Source of the DNA: Photorhabdus bodei | GTDB lineage: Bacteria; Pseudomonadota; Gammaproteobacteria; Enterobacterales; Enterobacteriaceae | Assembly (NCBI RefSeq): GCF_003287735.1 | Contig: NZ_NSCM01000001.1 | Location: 248,001-312,000, forward strand | DNA length: 64,000 nt | Reading direction: 5' to 3' | Shown here: piece by piece, positions 18,016-22,207 of the stretch | How the letters are laid out: each line of letters opens with the position of its first letter | Numbering within the stretch: position 1 is the stretch's first letter | Notes under the pieces: generated by a model | Told to the model about the DNA's origin: nothing | The model's database searches: none | Seen by the model: only the letters and a program-made list of their open reading frames with translations | Made by a program: the position numbers and the translations under genes

Positions 18016-18142
18016 TATACCCGTTATCTTTCAAGTTGCCTCTTTGTTGGCTGCACTCACTCACCCCGGTCACATCGTTATCTATGCTCCCAGGGATTCT
18101 CTCCCTTGCCGTCGCGATGCATCTTGAAATCCATAGGGTATA
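18016..18142 (-). repeat. ERIC element 4
   Basis: Full-length reverse-orientation copy between convergent yeaD and mipA, 16 bases before the mipA stop. Confidence 0.92.
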
Positions 18143-18158: not shown

Positions 18159-18911
18159 TTAAAAACTATATGTAACACCTGTCCAAACAATACTTGAATA
18201 TGACTTATTAACCATTGGGCTATCTTTAATTTCACTCGGTAAACGCTCAACGCGCCCCATCATAAATACAGACCATTCCTGGTTAAATTTATAATTAGCA
18301 GATAATTCGAGATAGGGAGTCCAACTATCATCTGGAGTATATTTTTCTAGTCCGCTATGGCGTGATTCACTATCTTTAATACCATATTCATAACGATTTT
18401 GTTTTTTACTATTCCAAACCACCCCTAATCCTGGTTGTAATGACCAATCATCACTTTTAAATTCATATAAATAAGCCAGGTCAATCGTTATGCCTTTACT
18501 TTTACCCAAAGTATCCGCAGCAAAAGAGCTACGCAACGTTCCCCAATCTTCAATATGACGATAGCTAAAGCCGCCCATCATAGTATCATGGCGACGATCC
18601 AACTTTTTCATCTGCTTATCTTCATTATCTTTTGGGCGGAAATTTTGAGGATAGTAATAGACATCTAAAGATAGCTGATCTTTTGGTTGATTCCACAAAT
18701 AATACCCGGCGGCTAAAGTATGAAAATAGAAATTGTCACTTTCATAATTAACCATTGGAACAAACAACACTTTATCTTTATTCTTTACCCCCTTATAAGG
18801 TGATGCCTCAGCTAAAACAGAGGCACCAATTGACCACTGTCCCGCATAAGCCAAAGATGAAGAAAGACAAAAAGTGACGACTGTGGCTAAAATTTTAGCT
18901 TTGTTGATCAT
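18159..18911 (-). CDS. mipA: MipA/OmpV-family outer membrane protein
   Basis: 250 residues with a cleavable signal peptide (MINKAKILATVVTFCLSSSLAYA). WSIGASVLAEASPYKGVKNKDKVLFVPMVNYES and the terminal GVTYSF, ending in an aromatic residue, are typical of the MipA/OmpV beta-barrels. In E. coli MipA scaffolds the murein synthase PBP1B and the lytic transglycosylase MltA. It sits after yeaD, convergent as in the E. coli neighbourhood, though yeaE is absent here. Confidence 0.9.
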   Translation of the reverse strand: MINKAKILATVVTFCLSSSLAYAGQWSIGASVLAEASPYKGVKNKDKVLFVPMVNYESDNFYFHTLAAGYYLWNQPKDQLSLDVYYYPQNFRPKDNEDKQMKKLDRRHDTMMGGFSYRHIEDWGTLRSSFAADTLGKSKGITIDLAYLYEFKSDDWSLQPGLGVVWNSKKQNRYEYGIKDSESRHSGLEKYTPDDSWTPYLELSANYKFNQEWSVFMMGRVERLPSEIKDSPMVNKSYSSIVWTGVTYSF

Positions 18912-19154: not shown

Positions 19155-19281
19155 TATACCCGTCATCTTTCAAGTTGCCTCTTTGTTGGCTGCACTCGCT
19201 CACCCCGGTCACATAGTTACCTATGCTCCCGGGGATTCACTCCCTTGCCGTCGCGATCCATCTTGAAATCCATAGGGTATA
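19155..19281 (-). repeat. ERIC element 5, forms the 3' end of alr
   Basis: Full 127-bp copy. Its right 61 bases (19221-19281) are the last codons and stop of alr, so the gene reads into the repeat. Confidence 0.93.
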
Positions 19282-20345
19282 GATACCGGGACCCGATCTG
19301 CCAATGCGCACAATAATTCATAGCCAATCGTTCCAGAGCTCTCCGCCACATCATCCACCGGCAAATTTTTCCCCCACAATTCAACACGACTGCCAATTTG
19401 GGCCTGCGGACAAGGTGTTAAATCCACCGACAACATGTCCATTGATACTGTACCTAATACTTGGGTCCTAACACCATCGACAATAATCGGTGTTCCCGTC
19501 ATTGCACAACGGGGATAACCATCAGCATAGCCACAGGCGACGGTACCGACTCGCATAGGGCCTGACACTGTATATTTACTGCCATAACCTATTTTGTCTC
19601 CTGCCTTGAGATTCTGAATAGCAATAATCTCACTTTGCAGACTCATCACCGCTTTCAACCCAATATCGGCAATATCTTTCCACTTTCCACTCGGTGAGGC
19701 GCCATAAAGCACGATACCGGGACGTACCCAATCTCTATGAGTTTGTGGATACCACAAAGAAGCAGCTGAATTAGCCAAACATTGAGAAATATCCAATCCC
19801 TGACTCACTGAATTAATAACGTTAAGTTGTTCAGTAACGCCGATCTCCTTATTATCCGTATTCGCAAAATGTGACATTAACGTTATTTGCCCAATTTGCC
19901 GGATACCTCTTGCTAATGATAAAACCGCGCTATATTGATCCACAGGAAATCCCAATCGATTCATACCGCTATTGAGTTTGAGATAAATATTGATGGGCTT
20001 ACTCAAATTGGCCGCTTCGATTGCTTCAAGTTGCCAATGGCTATGCACTACCGTTGTCAACTGATATTCATCAATTATTGGTAAATCTTCCGGTTTGAAA
20101 AACCCTTCCAATAGTAAGATTGCCCCCTGCCACCCCTGCTCCCGCAATAAAATCGCTTCATGAAAATCAAGTAAAGCAAATCCATCAGCCTGATCAAGAT
20201 ATCGCCATATACAATGCAGACCATGCCCATAAGCATTTGCTTTAACAACAGCCCAGATTTTACTATTACCGACCTTATTACGAATAATCGCCAGATTATT
20301 TTCCAATGCATCAAGATGGATCGTTGCCGAAATCGGACGTGGCAT
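19221..20345 (-). CDS. dadX: Alanine racemase (DadX type) with ERIC-encoded tail
   Basis: 374 residues. The PLP-binding Lys is in WAVVKANAYGHG, and TVACGYADGYPR and VDLT follow the racemase pattern. The usual C-terminus would fall at CALADRVPV; here it continues [20 protein letters not shown] and stops, all encoded by ERIC 5. The protein is therefore about 18 residues longer than its relatives. Position directly downstream of dadA supports the catabolic role: it converts L- to D-alanine for oxidation by DadA and also supplies D-alanine for murein. Whether another alr exists lies outside the window. Confidence 0.93.
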   Translation of the reverse strand: MPRPISATIHLDALENNLAIIRNKVGNSKIWAVVKANAYGHGLHCIWRYLDQADGFALLDFHEAILLREQGWQGAILLLEGFFKPEDLPIIDEYQLTTVVHSHWQLEAIEAANLSKPINIYLKLNSGMNRLGFPVDQYSAVLSLARGIRQIGQITLMSHFANTDNKEIGVTEQLNVINSVSQGLDISQCLANSAASLWYPQTHRDWVRPGIVLYGASPSGKWKDIADIGLKAVMSLQSEIIAIQNLKAGDKIGYGSKYTVSGPMRVGTVACGYADGYPRCAMTGTPIIVDGVRTQVLGTVSMDMLSVDLTPCPQAQIGSRVELWGKNLPVDDVAESSGTIGYELLCALADRVPVSIPYGFQDGSRRQGSESPGA

Positions 20346-20383
20346 ATTCTATTAGCCTCTCAGTTCAGTGTGTAATTGATGTC

Positions 20384-20510
20384 TATACCCGTCATCTTTC
20401 AAGTTGCCTCTTTGTTGGCTGCACTCACTCACCCCGGTCACATAGTTATCTATGCTCCCGGGGATTCGCTCCCTTGCCGCCGCGATGCATCTTGAAATCC
20501 ATAGGGTATA
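20384..20510 (-). repeat. ERIC element 6, forms the 3' end of dadA
   Basis: Full copy between dadA and alr. The dadA stop codon (20450-20452) lies in its middle; the rest forms the spacer to the alr start. Confidence 0.93.
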
Positions 20511-21787
20511 AATGGCACCAATTTTGTATTAAAACCATTAATATAACGAAATACTGATAAATCATCAGATGCAATGGCAGGCTTTTTACCCGAAATAATA
20601 TCAGCCAGCAATTGACTGGAACCGCATGCCATTGTCCATCCCAATGTACCATGCCCTGTATTTAGATAGAGATTGTGATATTCAGTCGGCCCAACAATTG
20701 GCGTACCATCTGGTGTCATTGGACGTAATCCTGTCCAAAAATGAGTCTGAGCAATATCGCCACCGCCTGGATAAAGGTCTTGCACCACCATTTTCAATGT
20801 TTCATAACGTGCTTTAAGCAGATTCAAATTGAAACCGACAACTTCTGCCATTCCACCCACACGAATACGGTTATCAAACCGGGTAATCGCAATTTTGTAT
20901 GTTTCATCCAATGCAGTCGATACCGGAGCCCGTTGTGCATCGACAATAGGCATAGTTAATGAATAACCTTTCAGTGGATATACTGGAATTTTGACAAGAC
21001 CTTTCAGTAATTCAGTGGAATAAGCGCCCATTGCAACAACATAGTTGTCTGCTGTCATAACACCATCTTCGCACTGGACGCCGGTAATCCGATCCCCTTC
21101 CACCAATAACTGTTTGACCTGTTTATTAAACAGAAACGTTACACCCGCCGCTTCTGCCATTTTTGCCAACTCTTTAGTAAAAAGCTGACAATCACCCGTT
21201 TCGTCGTTCGGTAATTGTAAGCCCCCCGTCAGTTTGTAAGCGACATGTGCTAATGCCGGCTCTACTGTCGCTAGCTTATCTGCCGTTAATAAATTGTAAG
21301 GAACACCTTCCTGTTCAAGAACGGCGATGTCATTCACGGCATTATCAAACTGCTTATTGGTGCGGAATAACTGAAGCGTGCCCCCCTGCCGCCCTTCGTA
21401 TTGAATACCCGTATCTGCCCTCAATTGTTTGATACAGTCACGACTGTACTCTGCCAGTCGTACCATCCGGCTCTTATTTATCGCATAGTGACTTGCATCA
21501 CAATTACGCAGCATCTGCCACATCCAGCGTAACTGAAACAGCGATCCATCCGGACGAATAGCCAATGGAGCATGACGTTGAAACATCCATTTAATCGCTT
21601 TCAATGGAATACCCGGCGCTCCCCATGGGGTCGCGTATCCCGGCGAGATCTGCCCGGCATTAGCCGCACTGGTTTCCTCAGCAGCGCTTCCCTGGCGATC
21701 AATGACAGTGACTTCATGACCTTGCTGTACCAAATACCAGGCACTGGTTACACCAATAACACCACTACCTAAAACAAGGATTCTCAT
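20450..21787 (-). CDS. dadA: D-amino acid dehydrogenase small subunit with ERIC-encoded tail
   Basis: Start chosen at 21787 ([22 protein letters not shown] dinucleotide-binding motif); an adjacent ATG at 21790 is equally possible. 445 residues. The family core includes [37 protein letters not shown] and [22 protein letters not shown]. The normal end near SVFRYINGF is followed by NTKLVPF and [19 protein letters not shown] from ERIC 6. The enzyme oxidises D-alanine to pyruvate at the inner membrane. It forms an operon with the racemase, as dadAX in E. coli. Confidence 0.94.
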
Positions 21788-22207
21788 CATGGCCCCCGGA
21801 CGATTTAAAATTTTAGGCAAGCATAATATGCTGATTATAAAAAACCAATATAGAACAATCATCGGTCACGTCAATAATCTACATTTATGATTTAGGTCAC
21901 AATTAAATTACATTTATGCAACAGGCTTATTTGTGATTCATACATACCCAACTTATGAAAATTAATATTAAAATCATAAAATTAAGATAATAATTACGAT
22001 ATGAACCACATGCTAATTATTTCATATCAAGTCATTATTCTGAGTTTTTCAGTGAAAAAAATGAATCAATTAAACAACCACAAGATACCAATAACCATCA
22101 ATTAATCGAAATAAAAACCTAAACAAAAACCAAAAAATCAGAATAACATTCTGAAATAGAGACATTAACGATTAGCTTGAGATTGAATCAGAAAAAAGAA
22201 ACAAAAC
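21788..22207. other. AT-rich dadA upstream region
   Basis: About 420 bp, very AT-rich with A-tracts, between dadA and the fadR terminator. No ORF and no repeat are seen. In E. coli the dadA promoter region is bound by Lrp and CRP over several sites; the A-tract-rich character is compatible with that, but I could not assign a site. Confidence 0.4.

Follow-up and report, generated by a model that had tools for sequence, protein, structure and literature searches.

In Photorhabdus bodei, two adjacent genes of one pathway, dadA and dadX, both run into a full-length ERIC copy near their native ends and finish with the same kind of repeat-encoded tail of 19 codons. We analyzed a window of 64,000 nucleotides (the whole stretch of DNA under study), in which positions 19155-20510 span exactly from the start of the ERIC at dadX to the end of the ERIC at dadA. 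The initial annotation had reported that both reading frames enter an ERIC and end with IPYGFQD(A/G) and 11 more residues, and the translations and coordinates agree with this. Judged from sequence, the tails very probably represent the neutral survival of ERIC insertions near gene ends, a tolerated damage of known type.

According to this explanation, two ERIC (MITE) insertions would have taken place at TA sites, probably independently and a few codons short of the dadA and dadX stops, and the native 3' ends of both genes would have been displaced by the repeat. Translation would then enter the ERIC for 19 codons and end at the ERIC TAG. With the family domain nearly whole in both DadA and DadX and a tail predicted to be flexible behind it, the insertions would be tolerated. 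The common tail would be a by-product of a common repeat that both genes enter in one orientation and one frame.

The dad genes and their ERIC-encoded ends

The features concerned, in the gene order dadA and then dadX on the minus strand, are as follows.

20450 to 21862, minus strand: dadA reading frame (D-amino acid dehydrogenase), 470 amino acids as listed, with orthologues in 11 congeners
20384 to 20510, minus strand: ERIC at dadA, full-length, 127 bp, 10 codons ahead of the native dadA end, with TA duplicated
20453 to 20509, minus strand: DadA tail, 19 codons, read from 20509 to 20453 and followed by TAG at 20450 to 20452
20346 to 20383, minus strand: displaced native dadA 3' end and spacer, containing GAGAGG
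19221 to 20345, minus strand: dadX reading frame (catabolic alanine racemase), 374 amino acids
19155 to 19281, minus strand: ERIC at dadX, full-length, 127 bp, near the native dadX end
19224 to 19280, minus strand: DadX tail, 19 codons, read from 19280 to 19224 and followed by TAG at 19223 to 19221

DadA matched the D-amino acid dehydrogenase family NF001933 with 735 bits (cut-off 383), its residues 26-443 aligning to model positions 1-419 of 429, and DadX matched NF002970 with 612 bits (cut-off 600), its residues 1-356 aligning to positions 1-355 of 356. Because the family models are covered almost throughout, the enzyme parts of both proteins are essentially complete. Since the DadA model begins at residue 26, the true start probably lies near this residue and the listed frame would begin 25 codons too early. 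Native DadA ends with ..PFSHQLHTELRG in the nearest relatives and with minor variants in other relatives, while native DadX ends in relatives with ..VPVS(I/L/V)CR or a near variant. The proposal that the tail replaces the normal ends thus holds for both genes, its extent being 10 residues in DadA (SHQLHTELRG in the nearest relatives) and merely two, CR, in DadX. The predicted tryptic peptide spanning the junction of DadX and ERIC is VPVSIPYGFQDGSR.

Both insertions and their reading frames can be seen directly in the DNA, and the empty site of dadA is preserved in the congener G007, which matches the flanks of the dadA ERIC, joined with a single TA, at 46 of 47 bases. This site thus shows insertion at TA with duplication of TA. 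The right flank of the dadX ERIC varies by small indels among species, and its TA junction is less clean than that of dadA. The dadA copy is probably young, because it is identical to three other sampled copies. A sequencing or assembly error is extremely improbable as the source of these ends: the assembly is indeed a draft of 192 contigs, but both ERICs are full length and lie within a 418-kb contig, the dadA junction is clean and flanked by TA, and two further assemblies also carry an ERIC at dadX.

The DadA tail was present in none of the 13 other Photorhabdus compared (the 11 congeners together with P. akhurstii and P. heterorhabditis). The two extra species come from a wider set in which 32 of 80 loci were read; the faulty readings in it were DadA of CRCIA-P01, whose end was taken from the congener comparison, DadX of X. 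budapestensis and Y. similis, and the CRCIA-P01 gap. At dadX, two of the 11 congeners carry an ERIC at the identical point, G007 reading VSIPYGF* and G004 reading VSIPL*, and the insertion was absent from both of the extra species. The tail is consequently broken in two of the three ERIC-bearing dadX genes, and the present genome (G000) has the only intact one. Retention of the tail by selection on the dad enzymes was rejected, given its occurrence in 0 of 13 others at DadA and the early stops in both other ERIC-bearing dadX genes. In a tree of dadA and dadX (14 rows, with the Xenorhabdus row left out), G000 and G007 are sisters and G004 is placed elsewhere, the nearest to G000 being G007 and Photorhabdus sp. 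CRCIA-P01. The distribution of the dadX ERIC needs at least two changes on this tree, so it would reflect two insertions, a loss or an exchange. A single common insertion in the three carrier species was rejected on the same ground. As G000 and G004 have the right flank TATGATGTCG in common, descent or exchange is favoured.

The dN/dS was 0.06-0.08 for dadA against the two nearest relatives and 0.11 for dadX against CRCIA-P01 (a dadX value of 0.78 against G007 was excluded because an indel had evidently shifted its rows against each other). These low values count for the account of tolerated insertions. Lys35 and Tyr254 of DadX, which we take to be the catalytic pair, are invariant across a 37-row alignment. 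We infer that DadA and DadX are both made, folded and active, and that neither enzyme has a use for the tail. In the predicted structures, pLDDT fell below 50 at residues 360-374 of DadX and at 444-470 of DadA, the latter stretch starting ahead of the ERIC-coded part; the tail is present in the window row alone of the structure alignments, and the low confidence there is in part due to this shallow coverage. The model of DadA is of mediocre quality, with a mean pLDDT of 71.6 and values below 50 also at 1-22 and 64-110, and its predicted disordered tail is for that reason weak evidence.

Moreover, the ends of DadX differ naturally, as Proteus and Photorhabdus sp. CRCIA-P01 carry unrelated extensions, and on comparison the DadX end has changed more than once within Photorhabdus. 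The extension in CRCIA-P01, IMSLNTRMPLNTR, is derived from a short tandem repeat downstream (L015, L044). A second alanine racemase gene with 42% identity is found elsewhere in the genome (G000:C16:27818-28864) and may make a damaged dadX less costly.

ERIC copies and the openness of their frames

The ERIC is an imperfect palindrome of 127 bp with TATACCC..GGGTATA ends, and both dad copies have this length. In the 5.06-Mb genome, in 192 contigs, there were 517 matches to one ERIC end with at most three mismatches; in the window and 100 further stretches (2,055,718 bases) we found 219 copies, 207 of them near full length. The two dad copies differ at 5 of 127 bases. Among pairs of copies of equal length, 30% differ at five bases or fewer and the median is 7, and each of the dad copies has closer matches elsewhere. 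As their mutual likeness is only ordinary and closer matches lie elsewhere, they look like separate insertions, and a local duplication of one from the other found no support.

The open frame from TATACCC to a stop, which the initial annotation had drawn from the consensus, is a regular property of the repeat and runs for 19 codons in 192 of the 207 full-length copies sampled. Of the 195 full-length copies that no ORF of at least 100 codons enters from the tail end, 180 have it intact, as do all 12 that are so entered. Selection is therefore not needed to explain the intact tail in dadA and dadX, since the consensus is open and so are most of the un-entered copies. The consensus has no stop within the first 19 codons of any of its six frames. 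This six-frame openness, which was tested after the fact, was matched by 36 of 20,000 dinucleotide shuffles and by 242 of 20,000 with the fold kept, and it is not a feature of the E. coli ERIC consensus, whose shortest frame has 3 codons. Several counts speak against giving it weight: stops over both ERIC strands are ordinary in number (10, with a shuffle mean of 10.6), shuffles often have two frames that are fully open (6,773 of 20,000), and all six frames are open for 18 codons in just 136 of the 207 single copies.

We then counted how often genes read into the repeat. ORFs of at least 100 codons enter 13 of 404 ERIC ends (about 3%) in about 2.0 Mb of this genome, a count that omits L223, L224 and L228, which had been picked for tail hits, and ends with fewer than 310 bases upstream. 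Entries in frames 0, 1 and 2 numbered 2, 4 and 4 at the left end and 0, 1 and 2 at the right end, so that five of the six frames are used. That entry is uncommon and spread over frames counts for tolerated insertions. A preference for the tail frame over other frames was not significant, with 4 of the 13 entered ends (P = 0.16) and 2 of 11 when the two window genes are removed (P = 0.57). The lean in orientation, 10 of 206 left ends vs 3 of 198 right ends (P = 0.088), was counted against tolerated insertion. So was the occurrence of tails on two neighbouring genes that serve one pathway, which is a coincidence on that account: by a rough estimate, which assumes about 0.9 gene per kb and is built on the sampled entry counts, 0.2 such pairs per genome would be expected in any frame and 0.02 in the tail frame. 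Identical protein tails in Photorhabdus need not signal a common function, as about 3% of the sampled ERIC ends are entered by an ORF.

A scan of the genome for other tailed ORFs, which the initial annotation had suggested, gave further instances. Among 150 exact tail copies scored (of 511 candidates), five sit in open frames of at least 200 codons, DadA included. Together with the same 19 residues on DadA and DadX, these instances would fit a functional C-terminal cassette that gives both enzymes a common property, e.g. localisation or turnover. We regard such a function as very doubtful. The intact dad tail occurs in this genome alone among the Photorhabdus compared, both other ERIC-bearing species having early stops at dadX. 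The nearest relative, G007, has one tail match in an open frame of at least 200 codons among 150 scored (of 604 candidates, 105 of those scored being exact), and the other genes with the tail are unrelated, one of them, a DUF4225 gene, being cut short. The idea of ERIC as a special coding cassette is not supported, given the openness of all six consensus frames, five of which are entered by long ORFs, the intact tail frame of most un-entered copies, and the confinement of the intact dad tails to one genome; the view is true only passively.

As a side result, the first-look candidates of the DadX search were few in three members of one clade (6 in G005, 13 in G010 and 27 in G008) vs 500 in G000 and 576 in G007. 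If these counts mostly represent ERIC tails, this suggests a very different ERIC load between Photorhabdus clades.

Other ERIC-tailed genes

We compared nine tailed genes with their congeners, six in the dad tail frame and three in others, and Pfam was applied to 10 of the 21 listed ERIC-entering ORFs as well as to both dad ORFs. Overall, ERIC-tailed genes are survivors near gene ends together with broken genes. In the dad tail frame, a sodium:solute symporter lost one residue and has its native end in all 11 congeners, and the L137 family (no Pfam match) lost two to three residues; in 10 congeners the top match lacks its tail, four of these matches being close orthologues with 76-85% identity. 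In the same frame, the DUF4225 gene is cut at 206 codons vs 240-291 in the eight congeners with a match, and a radical SAM gene had no match in any of the 11 congeners. Among the genes read in other frames, one for a glycosyl hydrolase 16 is cut at 212 codons vs 264-271 in the eight congeners with a match, none of which has the tail, and a GNAT gene is cut at 120 codons vs about 155-169 in the seven congeners read. The L213 gene (no Pfam match; L213:4770-5795) is near full length; four congeners have its native end at about 300-302 residues, three of them with an ERIC just past the stop, and its frame continues into the ERIC in G000 and in G009, where the gene has an earlier stop.

Four of the five near-full-length tailed genes (DadA, DadX, the symporter and the L137 family) use the dad tail frame and the fifth uses another, which was counted against tolerated insertion, an excess to be read with the fact that three of the four were found by the tail search and that six of the nine compared genes have the tail. 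The recurrence of ERIC tails outside dad, for GNAT in G000 and G007 and for L213 in G000 and G009, was also counted against it. The GNAT gene of G007 has the ERIC at the same point and a matching tail. Constraint on this tail was considered and rejected: G000 and G007 differ at 4 of its 60 bases, close to the usual divergence between two ERIC copies (median 7 of 127), which therefore gives no sign of constraint. The GNAT body in G000 (L278) is nearest to the uncut gene of G004, with dS of 0.04 vs 0.37 to G007 (L279).

These recurrences raise a further reading, in which ERIC would hit certain Photorhabdus gene 3' ends repeatedly and its openness in all frames would let the same few tails arise in parallel on unrelated proteins, with the dad pair as one such outcome. 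It is hinted at by the two or more changes at dadX, by ERICs at the L213 gene in five species and both orientations, by the GNAT insertion that G000 and G007 have at a common point, and by six open 19-codon frames being uncommon in shuffles. DNA exchange between species accounts equally well for the dadX, L213 and GNAT hints, and we hold the idea to be distinctly unlikely.

Three side observations concern single loci. Among the L213 gene and its relatives L290-L294, an ERIC lies at or directly after the stop in five Photorhabdus species, in reverse orientation in G007; either this gene end was struck repeatedly or DNA was exchanged. At L246, the G009 orthologue of the L137 family has its native stop, and 17 bases after it the right end of an ERIC starts, and as the right end faces the gene, this ERIC is oriented opposite to that of G000. 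Lastly, an Orn/Lys/Arg decarboxylase ORF (L224:6025-8034) meets an ERIC after 583 codons and runs for 86 more through and beyond it; its N-terminal and major Pfam domains match with no C-terminal domain, so it looks truncated.

Known systems and the dad mRNA

Peptides encoded by Rickettsia palindromic elements (RPE) are mostly internal, with native protein sequence after them. The dad tails are unlike these, as both stop inside the ERIC at TAG without a return to native sequence. In the portions available of PMC2229807 and PMC10969869, which review MITE fusions, RPEs and mRNA effects, RPEs are described as translated in frame in unrelated proteins, and an RPE-bearing guanylate kinase as active with changed substrate affinity. 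As far as the text available of Delihas 2007 (PMC2759123) extends, ERIC/RU-1 ORFs fused to enzyme C-termini were published there: the E. carotovora amidase ECA3499 has an in-frame ERIC beyond its conserved domain, absent from the amidases that the article names for other species, and an in-frame C-terminal ERIC is also present in L-threonine 3-dehydrogenase ECA0168. The dad cases resemble the fusions so described in that an ERIC is read in frame at an enzyme end and is absent from orthologues, and differ from them in frame, ECA3499 and ECA0168 using YTRH.. and RU-1f. The IPYGFQD frame, dadA and dadX are absent from tables 1-5 of that article, in its accessible parts. The accessible text of PMC10969869 cites 711 ERIC copies for P. 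luminescens, and that of PMC3091717 brings up ERIC in connection with Photorhabdus rearrangements. A literature text search with three pieces of the tail gave no match, and among the matches listed for ERIC and Photorhabdus the dad case is not named in the title or the start of the abstract. Within the searched literature, the dad tails are new as an instance and not as a kind; they show cleanly how a mobile repeat can rewrite the C-termini of enzymes, a close relative having kept the empty site.

The distance from the dadA stop to the dadX start is 104 nt here vs 1, 6 or 14 nt in Photorhabdus relatives (the gap of CRCIA-P01 was left out), and the dadA-dadX region folds at -73.1 kcal/mol (z -3.4, with 2 of 200 shuffles as good). 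From the sequence one might thus suppose that the dad ERICs were kept for an effect on the mRNA, their 3' hairpins altering stability and parting the dadA stop from the dadX start, with the tail incidental. This would also agree with Yersinia, where, as summarized from De Gregorio et al. 2005 in the available portions of PMC2229807 and PMC10969869, an ERIC at the 3' end destabilises upstream transcripts via an RNase E site; the dad ERICs likewise lie at gene 3' ends with a possible mRNA effect. However, the hairpin is general to ERIC (the consensus folds at -48.7 kcal/mol), the dadA insertion occurs in 1 of the 14 Photorhabdus genomes compared, and GAGAGG in 20346-20383, which may be the dadX ribosome-binding site, is still present. 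Retention for such an effect is therefore unlikely in our estimation, though the peptide may be of less consequence than the longer gap and the RNA hairpin.

Apart from the tails, ERICs in the same orientation at 18016-18142, 19155-19281 and 20384-20510, about 1.1-1.2 kb apart, flank dadX and the ORF at 18159-18911. If the second and third of these ERICs recombined, dadX would be lost and DadA would still end in a tail of this kind.
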